From Manis javanica (taxonomy: Eukaryota; Chordata; Mammalia; Pholidota; Manidae): a stretch of 64,000 nucleotides of DNA. The DNA lies in the NCBI RefSeq assembly GCF_040802235.1, contig NC_133158.1, forward strand, positions 87,716,501-87,780,500. The letters are read 5' to 3'. The first letter of the stretch is position 1, and every line of letters begins with the position of its first letter. Below are positions 28,578 to 64,000 of this stretch, one piece after another. The position numbers and the translations under genes are program-made. The notes under the pieces are model-generated. The model made no database searches. It was given only the letters and a program-made list of their open reading frames with translations, and was not told the DNA's origin.

Positions 28578-29217
28578 TTTCTCCCTTTATTATTATTATT
28601 ATTTTTATTTTTAATAAAATGCTGAAGTGGTAGGTAGATGCAAGATAAAGGTAGAAAATATAGTTTAGTGCTGTAAGAGGGCAAATGTAGATGATCAGAG
28701 ATCAGGTGTGTGCCCATGGACTAAGTATTAATCCAAGCTAGACAAGGGCAGGAAAACATCCACGGATGCAGAAGATTTCTCTCAAAACAGGGGGGGTGAG
28801 GTTCTGAGCCTCACCTCTGTTGATCCCCAATTTCTCACCTGATGGCCCCCCTGCGACTGTGCCTGTCTTAGCTTCTTCCTCCCTTGAGGAATCTTACCCG
28901 TCTCTGGCTAACCAGTCATCTTCCGGGGCCATACAGGGAAATGTAAAGTTGGTAAGTGAGAGAGAAGCCATATTGTTTGCAAAGGTTAGCTTTTTACTTC
29001 TTTGCAGATTTATGCCCTGTGGCTTCTATGCCCAGCACTTGTCTCGAGGTATCTTTACCACATGGAGGAATTATGATACTCGGTAAATTCGATATGAGGC
29101 ACGAATTCTATTTAAGGGTTGTAATTAGGAAGGAAGAAGAAAAGCTATAGAGGTAGCATATGGAAGAAAACATGGGAGGATTGATTATTTCTTTGACATA
29201 TCTTCTTGTAGACTACC

Positions 29218-29670: not shown

Positions 29671-30067
29671 AACCGCAGCATCGCCCAGATCCCTGTGGAG
29701 GCTTTTTGATGATCATCCCCCTGGCACAAGTCCTCCAGAGAGTGCTGATGCTGGAAGCTCCTTCTCATATCGTATCTTAATTCATTTTCTGGGTATCCAA
29801 GCTTGGCCTTGATCTTCTGCATAGAAACAAACAGACCCTTTGCCCACACTTTGACATGCCCTCTATACCACTGTGCAGAACTCATTGGAGGTCAGCACAC
29901 AGGAACAGCTTTTTTTTTTTTATTAAGAGAAAGGAATATTATCAGAAAAGAGTACCTCCATAGCTGATCATCTGACACCCTTTAAGTGATCAACATTAAG
30001 GATATTTAAAGCATGCATTGATCTTTGATTTACCAATAGTTTTATCCTGTCAAGGAGTAATCCCCCT

Positions 30068-30440
30068 TTTCTTTCTTTCTTTCTTTTTTTTTTTTAATCT
30101 TTAATCTACACTTACATGAAGAATACTATATATACTATGCTCTCCCCTATATCAGGTCCCCCCTAACAACCACATTACGGTTACTGTCCATCAGCTTAGC
30201 AAAATGTTGTAGAATCACTACTTGTCCTCTCTGTGTTGTACAGCCCATCCTCCCCTTTCTCCCTCCCCCCCCATGCATGCTAATCTTAATACACCCCTTC
30301 TTCTTCCCCCCCCCCGTGATCCGTCCCTGCCCACCCATCCTCCCCAGTTCCTTTCCCTTTGGTACCTGTTAGTCCATTTTTGGGTTCTGTAATTCCGCTG
30401 CTGTTTCGTTCCTTCAGTTTTTCCTTTGTTCTTATACTCC
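30068..30440 (-). other. L1 3' UTR of copy B
   Basis: This is the sense-strand purine- and G-rich 3' UTR between the ORF2 stop and the internal A-rich tract. C-runs at 30265-30330 on the plus strand correspond to the G-rich tract that is common in mammalian L1 3' UTRs and could form G-quadruplexes in the RNA. Confidence 0.75.
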
Positions 30441-33400
30441 TCAGATGAGTGAAATCATTTGGTATTTCTCTTTCTCCGCTTGGCTTATTTCACTGAACAT
30501 AATACTCTCCAGCTCCATCCATGTTGCTGCAAATGGTTGGATTTTTCCACTTCTTATGGCTGAGTAGTATTCCATTGTGTATATGTACCACATCTTCTTT
30601 ATCCATTCATCTATCAATGGACATTTAGGTTGCTTCCAATTCTTGGCTATTGTAAATAGTGCTGCAATAAACATAGGGGTGCATCTGTCTTTCTCAAACT
30701 TGATTGCTGTGTTCTTAGGGTAAATTCCTAGGAGTGGAATTCCTGGGTCAAATGGTAGGTCTGTTTTGAGCATTTTGATGAACCCCCATACTGCTTTCCA
30801 CAATGGTTGAACTAATTTACATTTCCACCAGCAGTGTAGGAGGGTTCCCCTTTCTCCACAGCCTCGCCAACATTTGTTGTTGTTTGTCTTTTGGATGGCA
30901 GCTATCCTTACTGGTGTGAGGTGATACCTCATTGTAGTTTTAATTTGCATTTCTCTGATAATTAGCGATGTGGAGCATCTTTTCATGTGTCTGTGGCCAT
31001 CTGTATTTCTTTTTTAGAGAACTGTCTGTTCAGTTCCTCTGCCCATTTTTTAATTGGGTTATTTGTTTTTTGTTTATTGAGGCATGTGAGCTCTTTATAT
31101 ATTCTGGACGTCAAGCCTTTATCGGATCTGTCATTTTCAAATATATTCTCCCATACTGTAGGGTTCCTTTTTGTTCTATTGATGGTGTCTTTCGCTGTAC
31201 AAAAGCTTTTCAGCTTAATGTAGTCCCACTTGCTCATTTTTGCTGTTGTTTTCCTTGCCCGGGGAGGTATGTTCAAGAAGAGGTCACTCATGTTTATGTC
31301 TAAGAGGTTTTTGCCTATGTTTTTTTCCAAGAGTTTAATGGTTTCATGACTTACATTCAGGTCTTTGATCCATTTTGAGTTTACCTTTGTATATGGGGTT
31401 AGACAATGGTCCAGTTTCATTCTCCTACATGTAGCTGTCCAGTTTTGCCAGCACCATCTGTTGAAGAGACTGTCATTTTGCCATTGTATGTCCATGGCTC
31501 CTTTATCAAATATTAATTGACCATATATGTTTGGGTTAATTTCTGGAGTCTCTTATCTGTTCCATTGGTCTGTGGCTCTGTTCTTGTGCCAGTACCAAAT
31601 TGTCTTGATTACTATGGCTTTGTAGTAGAGCTTGAAGTTGGGGAATGAGATCCCCCCTACTTACTTTATTCTTCTTTTTCAGGATTGCTTTGGCTATTCG
31701 GGGTCTTTGGGGTTTCCATATGAATTTTTGAATTATTTGTTCCAATTCATTGAAGAATGTTGCTGGTAATTTGAGAGGGATTGCATCAAATCTGTGTATT
31801 GCTTTGGGCAGGATGGCCATTTTGACGATATTAATTCTTCCTAGCCATGAGCATGGGATGAGTTTCCATTTATTAGTGTCCCCTTTAATTTCTCTTAAGA
31901 GTGACTTGTAGTTTTCAGAGTATAAGTCTTTCACTTCTTTGGTAAGGTTTATTCCTAGGTATTTTATTATTTTTGATGAAATGGTGAATGGAATTGTTTT
32001 CCTGATTTCTCTTTCTATTGATTCATTGTTAGAGTATAGGAAAGCTACAGTTTTCTGTGTGTTAATTTTGTATCCTGCAACTTTGCTGTATTCCGATATC
32101 AGTTCTACTAGTTTTGGAGTGGAGTCTTTAGGGTTTTTTTATGTACAGTATCATATCATCTGCAAATAGTGACAGTTTAACTTTTTCTTTACCAATCTGG
32201 ATTCCTTGTATTTCTTTGTTTTGTCTGATTGCCGTGGCTAGGACCTCCAGTACTATGTTAAATAACAGTGGGGAGAGTGGGCATCCCTGTCTTGTTCCCG
32301 ATCTCACAGGAAATGCTTTCAGCTTCTCACTGTTCAGTATAATGCTGGCTGTGGGTTTATCATATATGGCCTTTATTATGTTGCGGTACTTGCCTTCTAT
32401 TCCCATTTTCCTGAGAGTTTTTATCATGAATGGATGTTGAATTTTGTCAAATGCTTTTTCAGCATCTATGGAGATGATCATGTGGTTTTTGTCTTTCTTT
32501 TTGTTGATGTGGTGGGTGATGTTGATGGATTTTCGAATGTTGTACCATCCTTGCATCCCTGGGATGAATCCCACTTGGTCATGGTATATGATCCTTTTGA
32601 TATACTGTTGAATTCTGTTTGCTAATATTTTATTGAGTATTTTTGCCTCTACATTCATCAGGGATATTGGTGTGTAATTTTATTTTTTGGTGGGGTCTTT
32701 GCCTGCTTTTGGTATTAGGGTGATGTTGGCTTCATAGAATGAGTTTGGGAGTATTCCCTCTTCTTCTACTTTTTGGAACACTTTAAGGAGAATGGGTATT
32801 ATGTCTTCTCTGTGTGTCTGATAAAATTCCGAGGTAAATCCGTCCGGCCCCGGGGTTTTGTTCTTGGGTAGTTTTTTGATTACTGTTTCAATTTCTTTGC
32901 TCGTTATTGGTTTGTTTAACTTTTGTGTTTCTTCCTTGGTCAGTCTTGGGAGGTTGTATTTTTCTAGGAAGTTGTCCATTTCTTCTAGGTTTTCCAGCTT
33001 GTTGGCATATAGGTTTTCATAGTAGTCTTTAATAATTCTTTGTATTTCTGTGGAGTCTGTCATGTCATGATTTTTCCATTCTCATTTCTGTTTCTGTTGA
33101 TTTGTGTTGATGCTCTTTTTCTCTTACTAAGCTTGGCTAGAGGCTTATCTATTTTGTTTGTTTTCGCAAAGAACCAGCTCTTGGTTTCGTTGATTTTTGC
33201 TATTGTTTTTTTCTTCTCAATTTTGTTTATTTCTTCTCTGAACTTTATTATGTCCCTCCTTCTGCTGACTTTAGGCCTCATTTGTTCTACTTTTTCCAGT
33301 TACGATAATTGTGATGTTAGACTATTCATTTGGGATTGTTCTTCCTTCTTCAAGTGTGCCTGGATTGCTATATACTTTCCTCTTAAGACTGCTTTCGCTG

Positions 33401-34265
33401 CATCCCACAGAAGTTGGGGCTTAGTGTTGTTGTTGTCATTTGTTTCTATATATTCCTTGATCTCTACTTTGATTTGTTCATTGATCTATTGATTATTTAG
33501 TAGCATGTTGTTAAGCCTCCATGTGTTTGTGAGCCTTTTTGTTTTCTTTGTAGAATTTATTTCTACTTTTATACCTTTGTGATCTGAAAAATTGGTTGGT
33601 ATAATTTCAATATTTTGGAATTTACTGAGGCTCTTTATGTGAGCTAGTATGTGGTCTATTCTGGAGAATGTTCCATGTGCACTTGAGAAGAATGTATATC
33701 CTGTTGCTTTTGGATGTAAAGTTCTATAGATGTCTATTAGGTCCATCTGTTCTAGTGTGTTGTTCAGTACCTGTGTGTCCTTACTTAATTTCTACCCCGT
33801 GGATCTATCCTTTGGGGTGAGTGGTGTGTTGAAGTCTCCTAAAATGAATGCATTGCAGTCTATTTCCCTCTTTAGTTCTGTTAGTATTTGCTTCACGTAT
33901 GCTGGTGCTCCTGTATTGGGTGCATATATATTTAGAATGGTTATATCCTCTTGTTGGACTGAGCCCTTTATCATTATGTAGTGTCCTTCTTTATCTCTTG
34001 TTACTTTCTTTGTTTTGAAGTCTATTTTGTCTGATATTAGTACTACAACCCCTGCTTTCTTCTCTCTGTTGTTTGCCTGAAATATATTTTTCCATCCCTT
34101 GACTTTTAGTCTATGCTTGTCTTTGGGTTTAAGGTGAGTTTCTTGTAAGCAGCATATAGATGGGTCTTGCTTTTTTATCCATTCTGTTACTCTGTGTCTT
34201 TTGATTGGTGCATTAAGTTCATTTACATTTAGTGTGACTATTGAGAGATATGTACTTATTGTCAT
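30441..34265 (-). pseudogene. L1 ORF2 pseudogene of copy B
   Basis: This spans the full ORF2 from its ATG (34265) to the terminal stop (30441) but is broken into about six frames. 33792-34292 holds the endonuclease N-terminal half and ends at a TAG where copy C has a glutamine CAG. 33486-33746 holds the rest of the endonuclease. 32680-33063 and 32128-32658 hold the reverse-transcriptase domain with [10 protein letters not shown] and LFADDM intact. 31536-31934, 30983-31495 and 30441-30986 hold the C-terminal region with CWRGCG and LLHCWW. Individual motifs survive but the continuous protein does not. Confidence 0.9.
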
Positions 34266-34460
34266 TGCAGGCTTTAGTTTCGTGGTTACCAAAGGTTCAA
34301 GGTTAGCTTCTTTAGTATCTTACTGCCTAACTTAGCTCACTTTTTGAGCTGTTATATACACTGTCTGGAGATTCTTTTCTTTTCTCCCTTCTTATTCCTC
34401 CTCCTCCATTCTTCATATGTTGTGTGTTTTGTTCTGTGCTCTTTTTAGGAGTGCTCCCAT

Positions 34461-35351
34461 CTAGAGCAGTCCCTGTAGGATGCCCTGTAGAGGTGGTTTG
34501 TGAGAAGTAAATTCCCTCAGCTTTTTCTTGTCTGGGAATTGTTTAATCCCGCCATCATATTTAAATGATAATCGTGCTGGATACAGTATCCTTGGTTCAA
34601 GGCCCTTCTGTTTCATTGCATTAAGTATATCATGCCATTCTCTTCTGGCCTGTAGGGTTTCTGTCGAGAAGTCTGATGTTAGCCTGATGGGTTTTCCTTT
34701 ATAGGTGACCTTTTTCTCTCTAGCTGCCTTTAAAACTCTTTCTTTGTCCTTGATCCTTGCCATTTTAATTACTATGTGTCTTGGTGTTGTCCTCCTTGGA
34801 TCCTTTCTGTTGGGGGTTCTGTGTAATTCCATGGTCTGTTTGATTATTTCCTCCCCCAGTTTGGTGAAGTTTTCAGCAATTATTTCTTCAAGGGGACTTT
34901 CTATCCCTTTTCCTCTCTCTTCTTCTTCTGGTACCCCTATAATACAGATATTGTTCCTTTTGGATTGGTCACATAGTTCTCTTAGTATTGTTTCGTTCCT
35001 GGAGATCCTTTTATCTCTCTCTATGTCAGCTTCTATACGTTCCTGTTCTCTGGCTTCTATTCCTTCAATGGCCTCTTGCATCTTATCCATTCTGCTTATA
35101 AATCCTTCCAGGGATTGTTTCACTTCTGTGATCTCCTTCCTGACACCTGTGATCTCCCTCCGGACTTCATCCCATTGCTCTTGCATTTTTCTCTGCATCT
35201 CATCCCATTGCTCTTGCATTTTTCTCTGCATCTCTGTCAGCATGTTCATGATTTTTATTTTGAATTCTTTTTCAGAAGGACTGGTTAGGTCTGTCTCCTT
35301 CTCAGGTGTTGTCTCTGTGAACTTTGTCTGCCTGTAGTTTTGCCTTTTCAT
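34461..35351 (-). CDS. L1 ORF1 protein, intact in copy B
   Basis: This 296-residue frame from ATG to stop encodes the RNA-binding, trimer-forming L1 ORF1 protein that coats L1 RNA. Residues about 1-40 are a basic and acidic N-terminus. About 41-110 is a coiled coil with two copies of the 11-residue unit MQRKMQEQWDE. About 125-190 is the RNA-recognition domain, with the IIGVPEEE motif. About 200-285 is the C-terminal domain, with RRTTPRH, AREKKVTYKG and LYPARLSFK. It is 11 residues shorter than copy C's protein, exactly one repeat unit. The ATG was chosen because it matches the homologous start in copies C and D. Confidence 0.9.
   Translation of the reverse strand: MKRQNYRQTKFTETTPEKETDLTSPSEKEFKIKIMNMLTEMQRKMQEQWDEMQRKMQEQWDEVRREITGVRKEITEVKQSLEGFISRMDKMQEAIEGIEAREQERIEADIERDKRISRNETILRELCDQSKRNNICIIGVPEEEERGKGIESPLEEIIAENFTKLGEEIIKQTMELHRTPNRKDPRRTTPRHIVIKMARIKDKERVLKAAREKKVTYKGKPIRLTSDFSTETLQARREWHDILNAMKQKGLEPRILYPARLSFKYDGGIKQFPDKKKLREFTSHKPPLQGILQGLL
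35169..35234 (-). repeat. Two 33-bp repeats in ORF1 of copy B
   Basis: Two tandem 33-base units encode MQRKMQEQWDE twice in the coiled coil. Copy C has three units at the same place; copies A and D have one. Confidence 0.92.
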
Positions 35352-35442
35352 GGTGATAGAGATAGTTTGCAGAGCTGGTACGAGTGACCGCTGGAAGAGC
35401 TTTCCTTCTTGTTGTTTTGTGGCCTTCCTCTCCTGGGAGTAT

Positions 35443-35458
35443 AGCGACCTCTAGTGGC
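35443..35458 (+). promoter_or_regulatory. CTCF-like motif in L1 5' UTR of copy B
   Basis: AGCGACCTCTAGTGGC differs from the GCGCCMYCTAGTGG form of the CTCF motif at one position. It lies in the L1 5' UTR just upstream of ORF1. In copy C the matching stretch (about 46354-46369) has changed in the GTGG core, so the motif is weaker there. Confidence 0.35.
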
Positions 35459-35689
35459 TTATGCTTGTCAGCTGTGCGCAGACAGGGCTTCTGCTACATG
35501 CCCGTTTGCTATGGAGTTTATCTCCACTGTATCTGTGAGCGTGGCCTGGCTGGGGCTGCTCCTCCAAAATGGTGGAGCCCCGTTGGAGGGGGAGTGGCTG
35601 GGAGGCTATTTATCTCCATAAGGGGCCTCTGTCCTCCCTGTTGCCTATGGGGTTAGAGTGGCCAGAGATCCCCAGATTCCCTGCCTCTG

Positions 35690-36580
35690 GTCTAAGTGTC
35701 CTGTCCTGCCCCTTTAAGACTTCCAAAAAGTACTCTCCAAACAAAACAACAACAGCAACAATGAGAGAGGAATCAGAAAAAAAAAAAAAAAAAAGGAAAG
35801 AACACGTGATTTTTTTGTCCTCAGGCGCCTTTCCCAGGCACCCGCTCACTGGTCCTGTTGCCCTGCCTCCCTAGCACTGAGGTCCCCATCCCTCCAAGGC
35901 CTCCAAAAAACACTCTCCAAAAAAAAGGGGGAAGCGCGCAACCCTCTCCGTCCCCAGGCCCTGGTCCCAGGCACCTGCTCACCGGCCCTGCTGCCCTGCC
36001 ACCCTGCCTCCCTGGCACTGGGCTCCCTGTCCCCCTAAAGCCTCCAAAAAGCACTTGCCAAAAAGAAATAAAATGGGAGAATTGCGCGATTTTCTTTGTC
36101 CTCAGGCACCGGTCCCAGGTACCCGCCCACCAGTCTTGCTGCTCTGCCTCCCTGGTATTGGGGTCCCCATCCCTCCAAGGCTTCCAAAAAGCACTCACCA
36201 AAAAAAAAAAAAAAAGGGAAAAATGCACGATTTTCTTTGTCCTCAGGTGCTGGCCCCAGGCCCCCGCCCACCGGTCCCGCTGCCCTGCCTCCCTAATATT
36301 GGGAAAAACATGCGATATTCTTTGTCCTCAGGCGCCGGTCCCAGGCACCTGCTCACCGGTCCTGCTGCTCTGCCTTCCTGGCACTGGGGTCCCTGTCCCT
36401 TTAAGGCTTCCAAAAAGCACTTGCCAAAAAGAGAAAAAAAAAGGGGGAAAAATGTGCGATTTCCTCCACCCTCAAGCGCCAGTCTCAGGCACCCACTCAC
36501 CGGTCCTGCTGCCCTGCCTCCCTAGCACCGGGTCCCTGTCCCTTTAAGGCTTCCAAAAAGCACTCTCCAAAAAAAAAAAC
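35690..36580 (-). repeat. Tandem 5'-UTR monomers of copy B
   Basis: The phrase CTTCCAAAAAGCAC or close variants recurs near 35710, 35897, 36038, 36179, 36403 and 36546. This marks GC-rich tandem units of about 140 to 225 bp, each with a homopurine/homopyrimidine block and a GGCACC-rich part. They match the roughly 210-bp units of copy C. Tandem 5' monomers act as promoter units in rodent L1s; the same role is likely here but is inferred. Confidence 0.8.
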
Positions 36581-36799
36581 TGCTCCAGTTTCTTTCCACC
36601 CGCCGGGAGCCGGGGGGAGGGGCGCTTGGGTCCTGCCGGGCCGGGGCTTGTATCTTACCCCCTTCGCAAGGCACTGGTTTCTTGCAGGTGTGGATGTGGT
36701 CTGGATGTTTTCCTGTGTCCTCTGGTCTCTATTTTAGGAAGAGTTTTCTTTGTTATATTTTCATAGATCTATGTGTTTTTGGGAGGAGATTTCCACTGC

Positions 36800-36828
36800 T
36801 CTGCTCACGCCGCCATCCTGGCTCTGCC
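36800..36828 (-). promoter_or_regulatory. 5' end and YY1-type site of copy B
   Basis: Read on the minus strand, the element starts GGCAGAGCCAGGATGGCGGC. GATGGCGGC is the YY1-type core that sets the transcription start of many L1 promoters. The intact sister element has the same site at 44828-44838. Confidence 0.65.
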
Positions 36829-36834
36829 TAAAAT
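36829..36834 (+). repeat. Target-site duplication, copy B, 5' side
   Basis: TAAAAT here matches 28236-28241 on the other side of the L1 and abuts its 5' end exactly. Confidence 0.5.
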
Positions 36835-44800: not shown

Positions 44801-44816
44801 AAAATTGTTTATTTCA
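44801..44816 (+). repeat. Target-site duplication, copy C, 5' side
   Basis: AAAATTGTTTATTTCA directly precedes the L1 5' end and is repeated exactly at 53783-53798 after the poly(A) tail. It begins with an AAAA-rich edge, as expected for L1 endonuclease cutting. Confidence 0.93.
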
Positions 44817-44827
44817 GAGGCGGAGCC

Positions 44828-44838
44828 AAGATGGCGGC
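44828..44838 (+). promoter_or_regulatory. YY1-type site
   Basis: AAGATGGCGGC lies 12 bases into the element, the usual position of the YY1 site that directs transcription to start at the first base of mammalian L1s. It is intact in copies B and C but mutated (AGATGGCAGC) in copy D. Confidence 0.7.
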
Positions 44839-45089
44839 GTGAGTAGAGCAGTGGAAATCTCCTCCCAAAAACACATAGAGCTATGAAAATATAACAAAGA
44901 AAAATCTTCCTAAAATAGAGACCACAGGACACAGGACAACATCCAGACTACATCCACACCTGCAAGAACCCAGCGCCTTGTGAAGGGGGTAAGATACAAG
45001 CCCCAGCCCGGCGGGACCCGAGCGCCCCTCCCCCCGGCTCCCGGCGGGTGGAGAGAAACCGGAGCGGTTTTTTTTTTTTTTTTTGGCGA

Positions 45090-45955
45090 GCGCTTTTTGG
45101 AAGCCTTAGAGGGACGGGCCCCCGTTGCTGGGGAGGCAGGGTGGCGGGACCGGTGAGGAGGTGCCTGGGAACGGCGCCGGAGGACAAAGAATATCCTGCG
45201 TTTCTCCCTGCGAGACCTGGGGGCGGGTGCCTGAGACCGGTGCCTGAGGACGGAGGAGGTCGCGCGTTTTTCCCCTTTTTTTTTTTTCTCTTTTTGGCGA
45301 GCGCTTTTTGGAAGCCTTGAAGGGACGGGGACCCCAGTGCTAGGGAGGCACGGTGGCGGGACTGGTGAGCGGGTGGCTGGGACCGGCGCCTGAGGACAAA
45401 GAATATCCCCCGTTTTTCCCTGCGGGACCGGTGGGCGGGTGCCTGAGACCGGCACTTGAGAACAGAGGAAATCGCGCGTTTTTCCCCTTTTTTTTTTCTC
45501 TTTTCTGTGAGTGCTTTTTGGAAGCCTAAAAGGGACAGGGACCCCGGTGCTAGGGAGGCAGGGTGGCGGGACTGGTGAGCGGGTGCCTGGGACCGGCACC
45601 TGAGGACAAAGAATATCCCGCATTTTTCCCTGTGGGACCGGTGGGTGGGTGCCTGAGACCAGCACCTGAGGACGGAAGAAATCGCGCGTTTTTCCCCTTT
45701 TTTTTCTCTCTTTTTGCCGAGTGCTTTTTGGAAGCCTTGAAGGGACAGGGACCCCGGTGCTAGGGAGGCAGGGCGGCGGGACTGGTGAGCGGGTGCGTGG
45801 GACCAGTGCCTGAGGACAAAGAATATTGAGCGTTCCTTCCCTGCGGGACCGGTGGGTGGGTGCTTTTTGGAAGCCTTGAAAGGACAGGGACCCTGGTGCT
45901 AGGGAGACAGGGCAGCAGGACCAGTGAGCGGGTGCCTGGGACCGGCACCTGAGGA

Positions 45956-45988
<33 letters not shown>

Positions 45989-46076
45989 GCTTGTTTTTCC
46001 CCTTTTTTTCCTTTTTTTTTTCTCTTTCTTTCTGTTCCCTCTCTCATTGTTGCTGCTGTTGTTTTGGTTTGGAGAG
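45090..46076 (+). repeat. Tandem 5'-UTR monomers of copy C
   Basis: The anchor GCTTTTTGGAAGCC recurs at about 45092, 45302, 45512, 45722 and 45862, and in degraded form near 46078. Spacings are 210, 210, 210, 140 and about 216 bp. Each full unit has a GGAAGCC start, a GGGAGGCAGGGTGGCGGGAC middle, a GAGGACAAAGAATATCC part and a T-rich end. The 140-bp unit has lost the second half. A 27-base A run interrupts the last unit at about 45957-45986. Three spacings are exact multiples of three. Confidence 0.9.
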
Positions 46077-46454
46077 TGCTTTTTGGAAATCTTAAAGGGG
46101 CAGGACAGGTCACTTAGACCAGAAGCAGGGAATCTGGGGATCTCTGGGCACTCTAACCCCCTGGGCAGCAGGGAGCACAGAGGCCCCTTACGGAGATAAA
46201 TAGCCTCCTGGCCGCTCCCCCTCCAACGGGGCTCCACCATTTTGGAGGAACAGCCCCAGCCAGGCCAAGCCCACAGCAACAGCGGAGATAAACCCCAAAG
46301 CAACTGGGCAGGAAGCAGAAGCCCTGTCTGCGCACAGCTGCCCAGCACAAGCAACTAGAGGTCGCTATTCTCCCAGGAAAAGGCTACAAACCAACAAGAA
46401 GGGAAGCTCTTCCAGCGGTCACTTGTACCAGCTCTGCAAACTATCTCTATCACC

Positions 46455-47378
46455 ATGAAAAGGCAAAACTACAGGCAGACAAAGATCACAGAGACAACAC
46501 CTGAGAAGGAGACAGACCTAACTAGTCTTCCTGAAAAAGAATTCAAAATAAAAATCATGAACATGCTGACAGAGATGCAGAGAAAAATGCAAGAGCAATG
46601 GGATGAGATGCAGAGAAAAATGCAAGAGCAGTGGGATGAGATGCAGAGAAAAATGCAAGAGCAGTGGGATGAAGTCCGGAAGGAGATCACAGATGTCAGG
46701 AAAGAGATCACAGAAGTGAAACAATCCCTGGAAGGATTTATAAGCAGAATGGATAAGATGCAAGAGGCCATTGAAGGAATAGAAGCCAGAGAACAGGAAC
46801 GTATAGAAGCTGACATAGAGAGAGATAAAAGGATCTCCAGGAATGAAACAACACTAAGAGAAATATGTGACCAATACAAAAGGAAAAACATTCGTATTAT
46901 AGGGATACCAGAAGAGGAAGAAAGAGGAAAAGGGATAGAAAGTGTCTTTGAAGAAATAATTGCTGAAAACTTCCCCAAACTGGGGGAGGAAATAATCGAA
47001 CAGACCATGGAATTATACAGAACCCCCAACAGAAAGGATCCAAGGAGGACAACACCAAGACACATAATAATTAAAATGGCAAGGATCAAGGACAAGGAAA
47101 GAGTTTTAAAGGCAGCTAGAGAGAAAAAGGTCACCTATAAAGGAAAACCAATCAGGCTAACATCAGACTTCTCAACAGAAACCCTACAGGCCAGAAGAGA
47201 ATGGCATGATATACTTAATGCAATGAAACAGAAGGGCCTTGAACCAAGGATACTGTATCCAGCACGACTATCATTTAAATATGATGGTGGGATCAAACAA
47301 TTCCCAGACAAGCAAAAGCTGAGGGAATTTGCTTCCCACAAACCACCTCTACAGGGCATCCTACAGGGACTGCTCTAG
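46455..47378 (+). CDS. L1 ORF1 protein, intact in copy C
   Basis: This 307-residue protein is the L1 nucleic-acid chaperone that trimerises and binds L1 RNA. Residues about 1-35 form the N-terminus. About 36-118 is a coiled coil with three 11-residue repeats, MQRKMQEQWDE, at about 40-72. About 130-195 is the RNA-recognition domain, with IRIIGIPEEEE. About 200-295 is the C-terminal domain, with RRTTPRH, AREKKVTYKG and LYPARLSFKYDGG. The start ATG follows CACC, a fair Kozak context, and is conserved in copies B and D. Length is close to the usual 300-340 residues. ORF2 begins 195 bases downstream. Confidence 0.95.
   Translation: MKRQNYRQTKITETTPEKETDLTSLPEKEFKIKIMNMLTEMQRKMQEQWDEMQRKMQEQWDEMQRKMQEQWDEVRKEITDVRKEITEVKQSLEGFISRMDKMQEAIEGIEAREQERIEADIERDKRISRNETTLREICDQYKRKNIRIIGIPEEEERGKGIESVFEEIIAENFPKLGEEIIEQTMELYRTPNRKDPRRTTPRHIIIKMARIKDKERVLKAAREKKVTYKGKPIRLTSDFSTETLQARREWHDILNAMKQKGLEPRILYPARLSFKYDGGIKQFPDKQKLREFASHKPPLQGILQGLL
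46572..46670 (+). repeat. Three 33-bp repeats in ORF1 of copy C
   Basis: Units at 46572-46604, 46605-46637 and 46638-46670 are identical apart from one base and encode MQRKMQEQWDE three times. The repeat keeps frame and extends the coiled coil by 11 residues per unit. Confidence 0.95.
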
Positions 47379-47573
47379 ATGGGAGCACCCCTAAAAAGAG
47401 CACAGAACAAAACACACAACATATGAAGAATGGAGGAGGAGGAATAAGAAGGGAGAGAAGAAAAGACTCTCCAGACAGTGTATATAACAGCTCAATAAGC
47501 GAGCTAAGTTAGGCAGTAAGATACTAAAGAAGCTAACCTTGAACCTTTGGTAACCACGAATCTAAAGCCTGCA
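47379..47573 (+). other. Inter-ORF region of copy C
   Basis: There are 195 bases between the ORF1 stop and the ORF2 ATG, longer than the roughly 60 bases of human L1. The region is purine-rich (GGAGGAGGAATAAGAAGGG near 47430). The ORF2 frame is open for nine codons before the ATG, starting at a TTG at 47547, but contains no earlier ATG. ORF2 must be reached by an unusual route such as reinitiation or internal entry. Confidence 0.7.
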
Positions 47574-50500
47574 ATGGCAATAAGTACATATCTTTCAATA
47601 GTCACCCTAAATGTAAATGGACTTAATGCACCAATCAAAAGACATAGAGTAATAGAATGGATAAAAAAGCAAGACCCATCTATATGCTGCTTACAAGAAA
47701 CTCACCTTAAACCCAAAGATAAGCATAGACTAAAAGTCAAGGGATGGAAAAACATATTTCAGGCAAACAACAGTGAGAAGAAAGCAGGGGTTGCAGTACT
47801 AATATCAGACAAAATAGACTTCAAAACAAAGAAAGTAACAAGAGATAAAGAAGGCCACTACATAATGATAAAGGGCTTAGTCCAACAAGAGGATATAACC
47901 ATTCTAAATATATATGCACCCAATACAGGAGCACCAGCATATGTGAAGCAAATACTAACAGAACTAAAGAGGGAAATAGACTGCAATGCATTCATTGTAG
48001 GAGACTTCAACACACCACTCACCCCAAAGGATAGATCCACCGGGCAGAAAATAAGTAAAGACACACAGGCACTGAACAACACACTAGAACAGATGGACCT
48101 AATAGACATCTATAGAACTTTACATCCAAAAGCAACAGGATATACATTCTTCTCAAGTGCACATGGAACATTCTCCAGAATAGACCACATACTAGCTCAC
48201 AAAAAGAGCCTCAGTAAATTCCACAATATTGAAATTCTACCAACCAATTTTTCAGACCACAAAGGTATGAAAGTAGAAATAAATTCTACAAAGAAAACAA
48301 AAAGGCTCACAAACACATGGAGGCTTAACAACATGCTACTAAATAATCAATGGATCAATGAACAAATCAAAATAGAGATCAAGGAATATATAGAAACAAA
48401 TGACAACAACAACACTAAGCCCCAACTTCTGTGGGATGCAGCGAAAGCAGTCTTAAGAGGAAAGTATATAGCAATCCAGGCACACTTGAAGAAGGAAGAA
48501 CAATCCCAAATGAATAGTCTAACATCACAATTATTAAAACTGGAAAAAGAAGAACAAATGAGGCCTAAAGTCAGCAGAAGGAGGGACATAATAAAGATCA
48601 GAGAAGAAATAAACAAAATTGAGAAGAATAAAACAATAGCAAAAATCAACGAAACCAAGAGCTGGTTCTTTGAGAAAATAAACAAAATAGATAAGCCTCT
48701 AGCCCAACTTATTAAGAGAAAAAGAGAGTCAACACAAATCAACATAATCAGAAATGAGAATGGAAAAATCACGACAGACTCCACAGAAATACAAAGAATT
48801 ATTAAAGACTACTATGAAAACCTATATGCCAACAAGCTGGAAAACCTAGAAGAAATGGACAACTTCCTAGAAAAATACAACCTTCCAAGACTGACCAAGG
48901 AAGAAACACAAAAGTTAAACAAACCAATTACAAGCAAAGAAATTGAAACAGTAATCAAAAAACTACCCAAGAACAAAACCCCGGGGCCGGACGGATTTAC
49001 CTCGGAATTTTATCAGACACACAGAGAAGACATAATACCCATTCTCCTTAAAGTGTTCCACAAAATAGAAGAAGAGGGAATACTCCCAAACTCATTCTAT
49101 GAAGCCAACATCACCCTAATACCAAAACCAGGAAAAGACCCCACCAAAAAAGAAAATTACAGACCAATATCCCTGATGAATGTAGATGCAAAAATACTCA
49201 ATAAAATATTAGCAAACAGAATTCAACAGTATATCAAAAGGATCATACACCATGACCAAGTGGGGTTCATCCCAGGGATGCAAGGATGGTACAACATTCG
49301 AAAATCCATCAACATCATCCACCACATCAACAAAAAGAAAGACAAAAACCACATGATCATCTCCATAGATGCTGAAAAAGCATTTGACAAAATTCAACAT
49401 CCATTCATGATAAAAACTCTCAGCAAAATGGGAATAGAGGGCAAGTACCTCAACATAATAAAGGCCATATATGATAAACCCACAGCCAGCATTATACTGA
49501 ACAGCGAGAAGCTGAAAGCATTTCCACTGAGATCGGGAACCAGACAGGGATGCCCACTCTCCCCACTGTTATTTAACATAGTACTGGAGGTCCTAGCCAC
49601 GGCAATCAGACAAAACAAAGAAATACAAGGAATCCAGATTGGTAAAGAAGAAGTTAAACTGTCACTATTTGCAGATGATATGATACTGTACATAAAAAAC
49701 CCTAAAGACTCCACTCCAAAACTACTAGAACTGATATCGGAATACAGCAAAGTTGCAGGATACAAAATCAACACACAGAAATCTGTAGCTTTCCTATACA
49801 CTAACAACGAATCAATAGAAAGAGAAATCAGGAAAACAATTCCATTCACCATTGCATCAAAAAGAATAAAATACCTAGGAATAAACCTAACCAAGGAAGT
49901 GAAAGACTTATACTCTGAAAACTACAAGTCACTCTTAAGAGAAATTAAAGGGGACACTAATAAATGGAAACTCATCCCATGCTCATGGCTAGGAAGAATT
50001 AATATCGTCAAAATGGCCATCCTGCCGAAAGCAATATACAAATTTGATGCAATCCCTCTCAAATTACCAGCAACATTCTTCAATGAATTGGAACAAATAA
50101 TTCAAAAATTCATATGGAAACACCAAAGACCCCGAATAGCCAAAGCAATCCTGAAAAAGAAGAATAAAGTAGGGGGGATCTCACTCCCCAACTTCAAGCT
50201 CTACTACAAAGCCATAGTAATCAAGACAATTTGGTACTGGCACAAGAACAGAGCCACAGACCAGTGGAACAGATTAGAGACCCCAGAAATTAACCCAAAC
50301 ATATATGGTCAATTAATATTTGATAAAGGAGCCATGGACATACAATGGCAAAATGACAGTCTCTTCAACAGATGGTGCTGGCAAAACTGGACAGCTACAT
50401 GTAGGAGAATGAAACTGGACCATTGTCTAACCCCATATACAAAGGTAAACTCAAAATGGATCAAAGACCTGAATGTAAGTCACGAAACCATTAAACTCTT

Positions 50501-51389
50501 GGAAAAAAACATAGGCAAAAACCTCTTAGACATAAACATGAGTGATCTCTTCTTGAACATATCTCCCCGGGCAAGGAAAACAACAGCAAAAATGAGCAAG
50601 TGGGACTACATTAAGCTGAAAAGCTTCTGTACAGCGAAAGACACCATCAATAGAACAAAAAGGAACCCTACAGTATGGGAGAATATATTTGAAAATGACA
50701 GATCTGATAAAGGCTTGACGTCCAGAATATATAAAGAGCTCACACGCCTCAACAAACAAAAAACAAATAACCCAATTAAAAAATGGGCAGAGGAACTGAA
50801 CAGACAGTTCTCCAAAAAAGAAATACAGATGGCCAAGAGACACATGAAAAGATGCTCCACATCGCTAATTATCAGAGAAATGCAAATTAAAACTACAATG
50901 AGGTATCACCTCACACCAGTAAGGATAGCTGCCATCCAAAAGACAAACAACAACAAATGTTGGCGAGGCTGTGGAGAAAGGGGAACCCTCCTACACTGCT
51001 GGTGGGAATGTAAATTAGTTCAACCATTGTGGAAAGCAGTATGGAGGTGCATCAAAATGCTCAAAACAGACCTACCATTTGACCCAGGAATTCCACTCCT
51101 AGGAATTTACCCTAAGAACGCAGCAATCAAGTTTGAGAAAGACAGATGCACTCCTATGTTTATCGCAGCATTATTTACAATAGCCAAGAATTGGAAGCAA
51201 CCTAAATGTCCATCGGTAGATGAATGGATAAAGAAGATGTGGTACATATACACAATGGAATACTACTCAGCCATAAGAAGTGGAAAAATCCAACCATTTG
51301 CAGCAACATGGATGGAGCTGGAGAGTATTATGCTCAGTGAAATAAGCCAAGCGGAGAAAGAGAAATACCAAATGATTTCACTCATCTGA
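47574..51389 (+). CDS. L1 ORF2 protein: endonuclease and reverse transcriptase, intact
   Basis: This 1271-residue frame runs from ATG to stop without a break and matches the usual length of about 1275. Residues 1-235 are the apurinic-type endonuclease, with N13 in LNVNGLN, E42 in QETH, GDFN near 144 and SDHK near 229. Residues about 430-780 are the reverse transcriptase, with D599 in [10 protein letters not shown] and the FADD pair D701/D702. The C-terminus has the cysteine-rich [19 protein letters not shown]. It nicks target DNA at TTTT/AA-like sites and primes reverse transcription there. All catalytic positions I could check are present. The upstream TTG-initiated extension is not used because the ATG aligns with the homologous start. 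Confidence 0.97.
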
Positions 51390-51761
51390 GGAGTATAGGA
51401 ACAAAGGAAAAACTGAAGGAACAAAACAGCAGCAGAATTACAGAACCCAAAAATGGACTAACAGGTACCAAAGGGAAAGGAACTGGGGAGGATGGGTGGG
51501 CAGGGAGGGATAAGGGGGGGGAAGAAGAAGGGGGGTATTAAGATTAGCATGCATGGGGGGGAGGGAGAAAGGGGAGGGTGGGCTGCACAACACAGAGAGG
51601 ACAAGTAGTGACTCTACCACATTTTGCTAAGCTGATGGACAGTAACCGTAATGTGGTTGTTAGGGGGGACCTGATATAGGGGAGAGCATAGTAAACATAG
51701 TATTCTTCAGGTAAGTGTAGATTAAAAATTAAAAAAAAAAAAAAGAAAGAAAGAAAGAAAA
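51390..51761 (+). other. L1 3' UTR and internal A-rich tract of copy C
   Basis: A G-rich polypurine tract at about 51470-51580 contains several runs of three to eight G, a potential G-quadruplex common to mammalian L1 3' UTRs. The UTR ends in an A-rich tract (51724-51761, with A14 then GAAA repeats) that looks like the element's former poly(A) tail. Sequence unrelated to L1 follows immediately. Confidence 0.85.
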
Positions 51762-52155
51762 GGGGGATTACTCCTTAACAGGATAAAACTATTGGTAAAT
51801 CAAAGATCAACGCATGCTTTAAATATCCTTAATGTTGATCACTTAAAGGGTGTCAGATGATCAGCTATGGAGGTACTCTTTTCTGATAATATTCCTTTCT
51901 CTTAATTAAAAAAAAAAGCAGTTACTGTGTGCTGACCTCCAATGAGTCCTGCACAGTCGTATAGAAGGCATGTCAAAGTGTGGGCAAAGGGTCTGTTTGT
52001 TTCTACGCAGAAGATCAAGGCCTAGCTTGGATACCCAGAAAATGAACTAAGATACGATATGAGGAGGAGCTTCCGGCATCAGCACTCTCTGGAGGACTCG
52101 TGCCGGGGGATGATCATCAAAAAGCCTCCACAGGGATCCGGACGATGCTGCGGTT

Positions 52156-52597
52156 GTGGCTGCATCCAGCCCACCGTCTCCTGGACTTGCCATAAGAAGG
52201 AGGAGGGAGATGTCTAGGCTGGCATGTGCATACAGTGAGACAACGAATTTGACTGGATCTGTACTGTTGGAACTCTACCAGGAGTTGGGAGGGGTGCAAG
52301 TTGTAGCACCCCGAAATCTCATGACTATAGACTATCTATGGTTAAAAGAACATATGGGATGTGAACAGATCCCAGAAATGGGCTGCTTTAATTTGTCTGA
52401 TGGTTCAAGTACAGTTCGAAAATATCCATCATATCATAGATAAATTTTCACAAATGCCTAGGGTGCCTAAATGGTTTTCTTGGCTTCACTGGAGATGGCT
52501 GGTAATTATAGATTTGCTTTGTTTATGTCACCGTATTCCTATTATGTTAATATGTGTGTGCAAATTAGTTAGTAGTTTAAAACCTATACATACTTAA
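52156..52597 (+). pseudogene. Endogenous retrovirus env (TM) remnant, copy C
   Basis: This is the same transmembrane-subunit-like stretch as in copy B, here split into two frames (to 52443 and from 52361). A net loss of about 11 bases near 52401 causes the split. Visible parts are the cysteine region GCEQIPEMGCFNLSD, the helix that follows, the tryptophan-rich KWFSWLHWRW and the membrane segment. It has no ATG-led complete frame and no surface subunit, so no envelope protein can be made. Confidence 0.6.
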
Positions 52598-53010
52598 GGT
52601 ACTATACAAGAAGATATGTCAAAGAAATAATCAATCCTCCCAAGTTTCCTTCATATGCTACATCTATAGCTTTTCTTCTTCCTTCCTAATTACAAACCTT
52701 AAATAGAATTCGTGCCTCATATCGAATTTACCGAGTATCATAATTCCTCCAGGTGGTAAAGATACCTCGAGACAAGTGCTGGGCATAGAAGCCACAGGGC
52801 ATAAATCTGCAAAGAAGTTAAAAGCTAACCTTTGCAAACAATATGGCTTCTCTCTCACTTACCAACTTTACATTTCCCTGTATGGCCCCGGAAGATGACT
52901 GGTTAGCCAGAGATGGGTAAGATTCCTCAAGGGAGGAACAACCTAAGACAGGCACAGTCGCAGGGGGGCCATCAGGTGAGAATTTGGGGATCAACAGAGG
53001 TGAGGCTCAG

Positions 53011-53412
53011 AACCTCACCCCCCCTGCTTTGAGAGAAATCTTCTGCATCCGTGGATGTCTTGCTGCCCTTGTCTAGCCTGGATTAATACTTAGTCCATAG
53101 GCACACACCTGATCATCTGATCATCTACATTTGCCTTCTTACAGCACTAAACTATGTTTTCTACCTTTATCTTGCATCTACCTACCACTTCAGCATTTTA
53201 TTAAAAATAAAAACCTCACCCCCCCTGCTTTGAGAGAAATCTTCTGCATCCGTGGATGTCTTGCTGCCCTTGTCTAGCCTGGATTAATACTTAGTCCATA
53301 GGCACACACCTGATCATCTGATCATCTACATTTGCCTTCTTACAGCACTAAACTATGTTTTCTACCTTTATCTTGCATCTACCTACCACTTCAGCATTTT
53401 ATTAAAAATAAA
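53011..53412 (+). repeat. 201-bp tandem duplication in the tail
   Basis: Units 53011-53211 and 53212-53412 are essentially identical, both running from AACCTCACCCCCCCTGC to TTAAAAATAAAA. Copy B has the unit once. The near-perfect identity means the duplication is recent, arising in the source element or after insertion. Confidence 0.95.
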
Positions 53413-53435
53413 AATAATAATAATAATAGGAGAAA

Positions 53436-53758
53436 TGTGGGATCAACATATAAATCAAGTACAAAAATCAAATGAATATTCATATTTGACCTGATGGTTT
53501 ATAGGTCATATTGCATGATCAAAACCGAAAGTTTCTGTGATGAATGCCCTTGTACTGTTCACCATGTAAGAATTTATTCACTCTGTAAGAATTCGTTCAC
53601 CATGTAAGAACTTGTTCGTTATGCTTCAGAAGATTGGAGACTGACGAGAATTAGGCTTGAGATGGATTAATGATTGTACATTGAGCATTGACCCCCCTAT
53701 ACTGAATTTTATTGTTGTTAACAACCATTTGATCAATAAATATGAGAGATGCCCTCTC

Positions 53759-53759
<1 letters not shown>
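53436..53759 (+). repeat. LTR-like terminal segment in copy C tail
   Basis: The segment starts TGTGGGATC just after a purine tract (AGGAGAAA), as a retroviral U3 would after its polypurine tract. It ends CTCTCA at 53759, after which only A residues follow. It contains GATCAATAAATATGAG near its end. The 324-bp length equals the copy B counterpart. It could be U3 plus R ending at the cleavage site, or a whole short LTR with TG...CA ends. Confidence 0.55.
53735..53740 (+). terminator. Polyadenylation signal AATAAA in the tail
   Basis: AATAAA lies 19 bases before the last non-A base (53759), the normal distance for cleavage, which here follows CA. It is the signal most likely used by the transcript that gave rise to this insertion. 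Confidence 0.8.
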
Positions 53760-53782
<23 letters not shown>

Positions 53783-53789
<7 letters not shown>

Positions 53790-53798
53790 TTTATTTCA
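53783..53798 (+). repeat. Target-site duplication, copy C, 3' side
   Basis: An exact copy of 44801-44816 follows the A run that begins at 53760. Confidence 0.93.
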
Positions 53799-59700: not shown

Positions 59701-60744
59701 AATTTATCATAAGTTCTTGTAATGTAAGATGGATTTAAATTCATGGAGTTGAGCTTTTTGTTCTGTATCCATTAAATGCCTGATCCCTTGCTCCTTACAT
59801 CAACAAAACTTTCAGTCAAGTAAATCAGCTGTTGGACAGAATACAAATTATAGATTAGGCCCTGAAAGGTTAACAGTTTGCTATTTAGGATACAATTGAA
59901 AAGCTAGAGAGAACCAAAAGAATAAATATGTGTTAAACTCTTTCATATTAACTTCTACCCCAGGTAACTGACATGTCACGCTCCTTATATTTAGACATTA
60001 CCCACTGGAGGTGCAAAGGATTCTTATTACCACAATATAGTTCTCCTGTTGTTTAACAGAAGGTGTTAACCTTTCAATTGCTACAAAATTAAAGGTTTAG
60101 CCTGGAAACCTATCTCTAGACAAAAAGAAAAGCCATTATCTGAGGTTGTAACAAGGCTCATCAAAAGTCTGAAAATGCTCCAGAGCTACTCTCAGGTGCA
60201 TCACGATATAGCTCAAGGAAAATGTCACCATGTTATTTTTGTCTGTGTTGCAAATGACTAGAGATCTATGAATTTAGTCCTAATCTAATATGTAGTAGAC
60301 ACATTGAATGCACATCAGTGAATGTGTTCACAAGATGCTCCCTACCTAAAGTTTTGTCAAAATCTTCTCTAGAAAGAATGATAACTTTTCAATAAGTTCT
60401 ATTGATGTTAATTTGGATGATATGAGATAATCCATTAAAAACGCAATACAGCACACTTAGTTTTTCTTATTAGGTATTTGTATTGAAGACAAAAGTAAGT
60501 TTGGCACAAAATTAACAATTGCTGATTATTCAAATTTTATCAAGGGAAACTACTGGTGAAGGGGTTCAGAGATATGAGCGAGGAAAATAATTTATAAAGT
60601 AAAAAGATTGTAGCAATTGTATTAAGGCAGAATTTTGGAAGTGGGGAGGTTGGAAGGATTTCTCACTGGTCTTCAAGTGTATTCGACAGTCTTTGGTTCT
60701 GCGTAAGGGAGCAGTTTGGGAATATTTCAAAAGAGAAAGAATCA
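53799..60744. other. Unique AT-rich DNA, no gene recognised
   Basis: Apart from an L2 relic at 55335-55490, I see no gene, RNA or recognisable element. Open frames are short and isolated. Confidence 0.5.
55335..55490 (+). mobile_element. L2 3'-end relic
   Basis: The words ATGAGGGTAAACTTCTTGAT, GGCTCTGCCTACCTTGGGCA, then CACTGCTTAGAAGGGCCTGG follow the order of the L2 3' end. The match is diverged and lacks the usual terminal repeat. Confidence 0.55.
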
Positions 60745-61549
60745 GAGGTGGACCCCAGATGGCAGCGTGAGTAGAGCAGCAGAAATCTCCTCCCTAAACC
60801 ATATATATTTTTGAAAATACAACAAATACAACTATCCCTAAAAGAGAGACCAGAAGACAAAGGAAGACATCCAGGCTACATCCACACCTGTGAGAACCCA
60901 GTGGCTCGCAAAGGGGGTAAGATACAAGCCATGGCCCGGCGGGACCCGAGCGACCCTTACCCCAGCTCCTGGTGGGAGGAGAGGAGCCGGAGCGGGGAGG
61001 GAGAGGAAGCCCAGGTCTGCTAAATAGCCAGCCCTAGCCATCTGCACCAGAGTGCAGACACACAGTGCATGGTGCACTGAATCCTAGGGAAACGGGACAG
61101 TAAGACCTGTGAGTGGGTCCCCACAGCCAGAGCCCCTGGGACAAAGAAAAGCGAGTGCCCTTTGAAAATATTAAAGGGACAGGGGCCTCACAGCTGGACG
61201 GAAACATCCTGGTGCAATCAGCCAAGTAACTGGGAATCCCGGGGAACTCTGGGCACCCTAAATCCCTGGGCGGTAGCACAGCTTGGAGGCCCCTCACGGA
61301 GATAAACAGCCTCCCACCCATTTCCCCTCCTACGCCTGTCCACCATAGTGAAACAGCAGCCTGAAGCAGCAGGGCGAAGCTTCTTTCACAGCGGCCAGGC
61401 AATATTTAGAAACCCTGTCTGTGTGCAGCTGCCCAGCACAAGCCGCTAGGAGTCGCTATTCTCCCAGGAGAGGAAGGCCACAAACCAGCAAGAAGGGATG
61501 TTCTCCCAGCTGACACACGCACCAGCTTCCCACAATTACCTCTATTGCC

Positions 61550-62403
61550 ATGAAAAGGCAGAAAAATTTGATACAGACCAGATTAACCCAGACAGTCTCC
61601 CCTGAGAAGTAATCCAGGGAGATAGAACTAAACAATCTCCCTAAAAACAAATTCAAAATAAAGGTCAGAATCATGCTTATGGAGCTGCAGAGAAATATGT
61701 AAGAGCTAAGGGATGATGTCCAGAGGGAGATTACGGAAATGAAACAATCTCTGGAAGGATTTATAAGCAGAATGGATAAGATGCAAGAGGCCACTGATGG
61801 AATAGAAACCAGAGAACAGGAACGTGTAGAAGCTGACACAGAGAGAGATAAAAGGATCTCCAGGAATGAATCAATATTAAGAGAATTGTGTGACCAATTC
61901 AAAAGGAACAATATTTGCATTATAGGGGTACCAGAAGAAGAAGAGAGAAAAAGAGGGATAGAAAGTGTATTTGAAGAAATAATTGCTGAAAACCTCCTCA
62001 AACTGGGGGAGGAAATAATCGTTCAGGCCATGGAAGTACACAGAACTCCCAACAGAAGGAACCCAAGGAGGACAACACCAAACACATAATAATTAAAATG
62101 GCAAAGATCAAGGACAAAGACAGAGTTATAAAGGCAGCCAGAGAGAGGAAAAAGGTCACCTACAAAGGAAAAGCCATCAGGTTATCATTAGATTTCTCAA
62201 CAGAAACCTTACAGGCCAGAAGAGAATGGCATGATATATTTAATGCAATGAAACAGAAGTTAAAAGAACCAAGAATACTGTATTCAGCATGATTATCATT
62301 TAAATATGAAGGAGGGATTAAACAATTCCCAGAAAAGCAAAAGTTGAGGGAATTTGCCTCCCACAAACCAACTCTACCAAATATTTTAGAGGGACTGCTC
62401 TAG
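61550..62403 (+). pseudogene. L1 ORF1 pseudogene of copy D
   Basis: The ATG is at the homologous position, but a TAA stops the frame after about 20 codons, near 61610. A further stop lies in the coiled coil at about 61699. A single-base loss near 62083 then ends the open stretch 61739-62089. The RNA-recognition part (IIGVPEEEE) and the C-terminal part (62098-62292) remain readable. Only one coiled-coil repeat unit is present, near 61690. Confidence 0.85.
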
Positions 62404-62716
62404 ATGGAAACACTCCTAAGGCTAAACAGATGTCACCAGAGAAAATAAAATCAGAGCAAAGAAAGCAGACTAACCAAATACTAACTAAAGGCAAAAAATA
62501 AAAGCAACTAGCCACAAAGGCACTTAAAAGAAATACAAAAGAGCACAGAATAAAACACCCAACATATAAAGAATGGAGGAGGAGGAATAAGAAGGGAGAG
62601 AAATAAAGAATCACTAGACAGTGCCTATAATAGTTCAATAAGTGAGCTAAGTTAGGCAGTAATATACTAAAGAAGCTAACCTTGAACCTGTGGTAACCAC
62701 GAATCTAAAGCCTGCA

Positions 62717-64000
62717 ATGGCAATAAGTACATATCTTTCAATAATCAACCTAAATGTAATTGGACTGAATGCACCAATTGAAAGACACAGAGTAATAGAA
62801 TGGATAAAAAAGCAAGACCCATCTATATGCTGTTTACAAGAGACCCACCTCAAACCCAAAGACATGTATAGACGAAAAGTCAAGAGATGGAAAAGATATT
62901 CCATGCAAACAACAGGGAGAAAAAAGCAGGTGTTACAGTACGAGTATCAGACAAAAAAGACTTCAAAACAAAGAAAGTAACAAGAGATAAAGACAGACAT
63001 AATGACAAAGGGGTCAGTCCAACAAGAGGATATAACCATTATAAATATATATGCACCCAACACAGGAGCACCAGCATATGTGAAACAAATACTAACAGAA
63101 CTAAAGGAGGAAATAGAATGCAATACATTCATTTTAGGAGACTTCAACACACTACTGACTCCTAAGGATAGATCCACCGGACAGAAAATAAGTAAGGACA
63201 CAGAGGCACTGAACAACACACTAGAACAGATGGACCTAATAGACATCTACAGAACTCTACATCCAAAAACAACAGGATACACATTATTCTCAAGTGCACA
63301 TGGAACATTTCCCAGAATAGACCACATAATAGGCCACAAAAAGAGCCTCAGTAAATTCCAAATGATTAAAATACTACCAACCAACTTTTCAGACCACAAA
63401 GGTATAAAACTAGAAATAAATTGTACAAAGAAAGCAAAAAGGCTCACAAACATATGGAGGCTTAACAATATGCTCCTAAATAATCAATGGATCAACAACC
63501 AAATTAAAATAGAGATCGAGGAATATATGGAAACAAATGACAACAAGAACACAAAGCCCCAACATCTGTGGGACGCAGCGAAAGCAGTCTTAAGAGGAAA
63601 GTATATAGCAATCCTGGCAAATTTAAAGAAGGAAGAACAATCTCAAATGAATAGTCTAATGTCACAGTTATTGAAATTGGAAAAGAAGAAAAATGAGGCC
63701 TAAAGTCAGCAGAAGGAGGGACATAATAAAGATCAGAGAAGAAATAAACAAAATTGAGAAGAATAAAACAATATAAAAAATCAATGAAACCAAGAGCTGG
63801 TTCTTCTAGGAAAAAAACAAAATAGATAAGCCTCTAGCCAAACTTATTAAGAGAAAAACAGAATCAACACACATCAACAGAATCAGAAACTAGAAAGGAA
63901 AAATCACGACAGACCCAACAGAAACACAAAGAATAATTAGAGAATACTATGAAAGTCTGTATGCTAACAAGCTGGAAAACCTAGAAGAAATGGACAACTT
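62717..64000 (+). pseudogene. L1 ORF2 pseudogene of copy D, partial
   Basis: The endonuclease domain begins at an ATG (MAISTYLSI). It is frameshifted near 62900 and again near 63000. It stays open at 63002-63703, where GDFN and SDHK are present, and then breaks again near 63690. The reverse-transcriptase domain lies outside the window. Confidence 0.85.

Follow-up and report, generated by a model that had tools for sequence, protein, structure and literature searches.

An L1 family in the Manis javanica genome that ends in a piece of an endogenous retrovirus

Introduction

How does a coding L1 retrotransposon come to end in the env and LTR sequence of an endogenous retrovirus (ERV), and can such an ending become the common property of an L1 family? 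The question is raised by a stretch of Manis javanica DNA of 64,000 nucleotides, referred to here as the window, in which L1 copies continue past their own 3' terminus into retroviral DNA. L1 3' ends are usually seen as weak terminators, and read-through beyond them leads to one-off transductions. An earlier note on this DNA had proposed that an ancestral L1 captured the 3' end of an ERV and that the chimera then amplified. Here, we describe the L1 copies and their tails, the abundance of the L1-tail junction in the host genome, and an ERV related to the one that donated the tail.

L1 copies in the window

Four sizeable L1 copies, A to D, are present in the 64-kb window, with 3' UTRs that we take to be pangolin-like. 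Two of them are full length, copy B on the reverse strand (36829 to 28254) and copy C on the forward strand (44817 to 53786). The L1 part of copy C (44817..51735, +) consists of a 5' UTR with four tandem monomers of ~210 bases (45051-45892, +; 70-88% identical to the reference unit), ORF1 (46455..47378, +, from the first ATG of the open frame 46359-47378), ORF2 (47574..51389, +, from the first ATG of the open frame 47520-51389), and a 3' UTR. ORF1 encodes L1 RBD-like and dsRBD-like domains (profile E 2e-25 and 3.5e-20), and ORF2 encodes a reverse transcriptase (RVT_1, E 6e-47) and an endonuclease (Exo_endo_phos, E 3.4e-24), giving copy C the RNA-binding, endonuclease, and reverse transcriptase domains of an autonomous L1 in open ORF1 and ORF2. 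Ahead of the RNA-binding domain, ORF1 contains an 11-residue repeat (QRKMQEQWDEM-like; 46570-46719), with three units in copy C and two in copy B.

The ORF2 of copy B (L1 part 30090..36829, -) is split into several frames. Copy D begins near the end of the window (5' part 60742..64000, +) and runs past it into the sequence L002, with the same junction and a tail from L002 2963 onward. Copy A (14.9-19.8 kb) is older, 81-82% identical over ~4.1 kb, and ends at the internal junction without a tail. Between copies B and C, divergence is 2.6% in ORF2 (100/3,869), 4.0% in ORF1 (35/885), and 4.3% in the 3' UTR (15/346). Because both ORFs of copy C are open and a further copy (L024) is 99.1-99.6% identical to it, these sequences point indirectly to recent activity of the tailed family, with copy C as a coding member.

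The junction and the retroviral tail

In copy C, the L1 3' terminus, with ATTAAA at 51721 and again at 51728, passes into an A-rich (GAAA)n tract (junction 51715..51761, +), which is followed by the tail (51762..53758, +) and a terminal poly(A) (53759..53786, +). The tail of copy B (28254..30067, -) is likewise bounded by an internal A-rich tract on one side and a terminal poly(A) on the other, and for both copies the tail positions given in the earlier note were correct. Its description of the two tails as almost identical was too strong, since they are only similar, with 74 mismatches over 1,798 aligned bases (4.1%) and a 201-base tandem duplication (53011..53412, +) that is found in copy C and absent from copy B. 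The target-site duplications that had been placed outside both tails are clear for copy C, where AATTGTTTATTTCA occurs at 44803..44816 (+) and again at 53785..53798 (+), the first two A's of the latter being shared with the poly(A). In copy B they are imperfect (AAAAAATATTTTAG and AAAAACAATTTTAG, read by eye; an automated search gave 8-base matches only), and a search around copy D found none.

The tail of copy C, 2.0 kb long, is ERV sequence from the 3' part of the provirus, running from the pol/env boundary through an env transmembrane (TM) fragment and a purine tract to the LTR. The env TM fragment of copy C (52114..52597, +) contains a frame change (frames 52114-52443 and 52346-52597), and that of copy B (29218..29712, -) is a single open frame of 164 aa. 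The copy B frame resembles the TM solved for avian sarcoma/leukosis virus (ASLV; two sequences, E 2.5e-7 and 2.9e-7) and, more weakly, filovirus-like GP2 (from E 0.001); of 45 candidates, 26 proteins of short ENA contigs were related to it. No Pfam family matched the env fragment with any weight, and its comparison with viral contigs gave a single 19-residue match in one 65-kb contig, which was taken as chance. An integrase C-terminal domain, suspected by eye at the start of the tail, found no support in Pfam or PDB.

The LTR of copy C begins with TGTGGG after the purine tract and comprises U3-R (53436..53758, +), with AATAAA at 53735-53740; the corresponding part of copy B is at 28254..28577 (-). 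The copy C tail stops 18 bases past the AATAAA, at the position where retroviral R would be expected to end. A tail-end pattern had no matches in the viral contig collection and none in the wider genome contig collection.

Abundance of the junction in the host genome

A strict junction pattern gave 5,358 matches (2,624 + 2,734) in the 2.56-Gb host genome compared with 0 for the reversed-pattern control, which excludes chance. The L1 end word alone was found 8,825 times (control 7) and the tail start word 7,999 times (control 0). The positions of the two words were compared on contig C1 up to 25.67 Mb, a part that takes in all 100 listed tail words and 91 of the 100 listed L1 words, the other nine lying beyond the end of the tail-word list. 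An exact tail word followed the L1 end word within 110 bases in 77 of the 91 cases. Inspection of the remaining 14 revealed 13 with a tail in which the word had changed and one chance match with no L1 before it (L056), so that in this part of C1 the tail is present at 90 of 90 L1 ends with the family end word, a word that itself selects the younger lineage. Conversely, 23 tail words in the same part had no exact L1 word; 20 were inspected, and an L1 3' UTR was found upstream in 19 of the 20, the other (L031) lying in other DNA and starting at an A-rich tract. Among 13 tail copies, identity to copy C was 84.2-96.6% across the first 350 tail bases.

These counts are not all independent, because some of the compared places in C1 lie in duplicated blocks. 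Near 1.82, 4.50, and 23.48 Mb of C1 junctions occur as oppositely oriented pairs, three in all, with a spacing of exactly 4,420 bases in every pair. The locus L027 (C1:1820900-1829900) is a palindrome whose arms take in flanking DNA, and together with the repeated pairs this suggests that a palindromic block has seemingly been duplicated within C1.

Independent insertions and tailless relatives

The junction occurs genome-wide and was seen in copies with differing target-site duplications, as the earlier note had predicted for a chimeric family, and it is therefore not the product of one segmental duplication. In a random sample of C3 (20 stretches of 10 kb, 200 kb in total), a single young L1 3' end was within reach (L006, with L023 as its extension); it was tailed, truncated in ORF2, and flanked by a 16-base target-site duplication. 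Two copies from the junction list (L025 and L026) are 5' truncated in the 3' UTR and have target-site duplications of 19 and 15 bases. Clear and differing target-site duplications were thus found in four of the six testable copies, on two contigs (copy C, L006/L023, L025, and L026), and each of the four shows the structure of a 3' transduction, with an internal A tract, foreign DNA, and a second poly(A) inside one pair of target-site duplications. A further L1 in the C3 sample (L004; of similar or greater age) is 88.5% identical in ORF2 and ends at the junction without a tail, suggesting that tailless relatives existed beside the tailed L1s.

One locus (L020, 1118-1220) contains the LTR end alone, with 111 aligned columns at 87% identity, an A-rich tail, and the duplication AAAAAGAACTCTGCC; it is an insertion truncated within the LTR.

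A related ERV without L1

To locate the source of the tail, we searched the host genome for the LTR end followed by non-A bases at set positions, which gave 13 matches. Three of the loci (L062, L063, and L064) share a common U5, and the other 10 have (AAC)n in place of poly(A) after the LTR end. L062 is a solo LTR that lies within an old L1 and is flanked by a GAGGG pair, and L064 is a further locus holding an LTR with the common U5. L063 and its upstream neighbor L065 consist of ERV DNA and do not match L1. L065 contains pieces with matches to RVT_1, RVT_thumb, and RNase H, and an integrase core match (31.5 bits) falls just below the cut-off of 32.6. The nearest match of the RNase H piece is chain 7sr6 (E 2.2e-29), which we take to be the HERV-K reverse transcriptase; RVT_thumb and the 7sr6-like RNase H presumably point to a class II ERV. 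Class II ERVs make short target duplications of 4-6 bases, and the GAGGG pair of L062, together with the TG..CA LTR of L063, has the form expected of this class.

In L063, a homolog of tail positions 1-370 (74% identity) is followed by 926 bases that are absent from the tail, a homolog of tail positions 392-1814 (79% identity), and the LTR (L063 2418-2828; 411 bases, TG..CA, U5 present). The env frame is open (L063 343-1584, 413 residues), and the 926 bases are, judged by their place in it, the env surface part. Splicing was considered as the cause of the missing segment and set aside, as its edges in L063 (~413 and ~1338) showed no convincing splice signals by eye. The TM cysteine motif is CX6GC in the L1 tail versus CX6CC in L063. 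A parent provirus, in which the tail continues into upstream env and pol without L1, had been anticipated in the earlier note: an L1-free ERV does join the tail region to pol and env, but at 74% and 79% identity it is a relative of the donor and not the donor itself.

Ahead of the tail start, L063 has the sequence TATTAAAACGAAAAGGGGG. Here, a TT/AAAA site (L063 41/42) lies nine bases before the base aligned to the tail start (L063 51; read by eye), and the ERV's own AAAACGAAAA would merge with the L1 A tract to give the chimera junction as seen. TTAAAA is named as an L1 insertion signature in excerpts of PMC9604959. The site is read from a relative of 74-79% identity and lies nine bases from the tail start and not exactly at it, which slightly lowers our confidence in the explanation given below. 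Searches of the host genome did not find a founder locus with an L1 inside the donor ERV.

Origin of the chimera

Very probably, an L1 inserted into an ERV, its transcripts read through to the 3' LTR, and the resulting chimera amplified as an L1 family; the junction count, the differing target-site duplications, and the L1-free ERV all support the capture and amplification proposed previously. Weighing against it are the failure of the searches to find the founder locus, the imperfect duplications of copy B and their absence around copy D, the merely rough agreement of body and tail distances, and tailless relatives such as L004. The L1 would have integrated in the sense direction of an ERV copy, at a TT/AAAA site close to its pol/env boundary; the env surface part of that copy would have been missing at the time or lost afterwards. 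Transcripts from the L1 promoter would then have passed the weak L1 end (ATTAAA and A tract) and been cleaved where the 3' LTR of the retrovirus has its poly(A) site. By target-primed reverse transcription, the L1 machinery would have placed copies of such complete transcripts at new sites. Daughters made in this way would end at the retroviral poly(A) site, as would their own daughters, so that a single founding 3' transduction could have given an autonomous L1 family, now thousands of copies strong, a lasting new 3' end.

A different route to the same order of parts is a template jump, in which the L1 reverse transcriptase starts on polyadenylated ERV RNA and jumps to the poly(A) end of L1 RNA, so that L1-A(n)-ERV-A(n) arises in a single step and no L1 need have been inside an ERV. 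The rearranged tail of copy D resembles such a join, but a jump has no reason to start beside a TT/AAAA site, which in the related ERV lies nine bases off the tail start; this observation is suggestive and not decisive, and we regard the jump as improbable. There is hardly any chance that the copies in the window duplicate one chance juxtaposition, through segmental duplication or an assembly artefact. Copies B, C, and D are indeed close together and some C1 copies lie within duplicated palindromic blocks, but the junctions number 5,358 and their flanks, target-site duplications, and 5' truncation points differ; for the checked copies, differing target-site duplications rule this cause out. 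The presence of the tail at all 90 L1 ends of this type in the compared part of C1 could also be expected if it were an ordinary, ancient, non-retroviral mammalian L1 3' UTR. Copy A and L004, however, stop at the internal junction. Moreover, an ERV carrying pol, env, and a U5-containing LTR can be aligned to the tail, which itself codes for an ASLV-like TM. We give this reading almost no credence, and as to the origin of the tail it is ruled out by the L1-free ERV copy, evidence that comes from the host genome.

As for why the chimera spread, the use of the LTR signal in every checked copy, together with the makeup of copy D, suggests that this signal may have conferred an advantage. The retroviral poly(A) signal may have brought the success, a reading that fits the data, or the tail may have hitch-hiked with a successful L1.

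Relation to known chimeric elements

The tailed L1 family is best seen as a variant of L1 3' transduction and an autonomous counterpart of the SINE-R of SVA. As in L1 3' transduction, the L1 transcript would continue beyond the element's weak signal and take along DNA from downstream, with target-site duplications outside the carried DNA; such events are usually single insertions, whereas here the carried DNA is the common 3' end of thousands of copies. The overall L1 transduction rate is given as 10-23% in excerpts of PMC12593883, which also describe SINE-R as the 3' end of HERV-K10 env plus the 3' LTR, followed by an A-tail. SVA is mobilized by L1 proteins, according to a passage of PMC7353768. 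The tail is built like SINE-R, with the env end and an LTR that stops before the A-tail at the LTR poly(A) position. SVA, however, is non-autonomous and hominoid, and here the piece comes from another ERV and is attached to a full-length coding L1. An identification of copy C as an SVA was rejected, since as a coding L1 it does not have the hexamer, Alu-like, VNTR, non-autonomous composition of that element. The parallel with SINE-R, involving a different ERV and a coding L1, suggests that env-LTR ends may be favored repeatedly as L1-compatible 3' ends.

Chimeric L1s with U6, 5S, tRNA, Alu, and mRNA pieces (PMC13174262) are similar in joining L1 and other sequence in one insertion, but that survey, as excerpted, seeks partners 5' of L1, and 'endogenous retrovirus' and 'ERV' each have 0 occurrences in its main text. 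A mouse cL1 consisting of partial L1 ORF2 and a MaLR LTR, attributed to template switching or transduction in parts of PMC6500023, is likewise treated there as one chimeric retrotransposon; it was built for an Axin1 insertion, mimicking retrotransposition, and those parts of the paper do not describe an amplified, coding family with an env-LTR tail. In Manis pentadactyla, whose ERVs include an alpha-like group, the element ERV-Gamma.b9-Mpen contains an almost complete L1 between env and the 3' LTR (PMC12584738, in part). Its geometry is close to that expected of the founder locus, but it is gamma-type and one element, and it is not reported in those sections as a spreading chimera. The label "L1-ERV" is used in an excerpt of PMC2724483 for a small fusion in a rat gene. 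No description of an L1 family with a retroviral tail was found among the titles and abstract openings listed from the open-licence literature, and six sequence words of the tail and the L1 had no occurrence in the open-licence literature searched.

In this family, one read-through event apparently became the 3' end of a successful autonomous L1. A comparison of tailed with untailed lineages of the same genome thereby offers a direct test of whether L1 success depends on 3'-end strength. Moreover, thousands of partial LTRs have been spread by L1 and are not to be counted as retroviral integrations.

Stacked and mosaic copies

In L025, one target-site duplication encloses an L1 piece and its tail together with a second purine-tract-LTR unit, indicating that these parts moved as one unit. 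Copy D has a similar second purine-tract-LTR unit, either a stacked unit or a separate small insertion into the A tract, and an internal rearrangement. Compared with copies B and C, copy D diverges by ~6-14% across most of ORF1 and ORF2, with 22% where the compared part begins at its 5' end. The figures are 3.3% in a 400-column block at the ORF2 end, 5-6% in the block of the 3' UTR, and 1.5-5.4% within the tail. A body so much more diverged than its 3' end indicates that, in this one copy, the 3' module sits on a different L1 body.

These copies allow a broader reading, which we put forward tentatively and think somewhat less probable than its opposite, that the 3' module of retroviral origin is a better and portable ending, which raised the success of the L1 that captured it, recombined near the ORF2 end onto at least one other body, and grows by stacking LTR units. 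If so, an L1 lineage would owe its renewal to a terminator adopted from a virus, and every complete insertion would sow an LTR U3 in the genome. Distances between L1 bodies and between tails agree only roughly, with the body far more diverged than the tail in copy D and the tail more diverged than the body in L027. Within the LTR of copy D (L002 4496-4710), a stretch of the tail start is inserted, an arrangement that resembles template switching.
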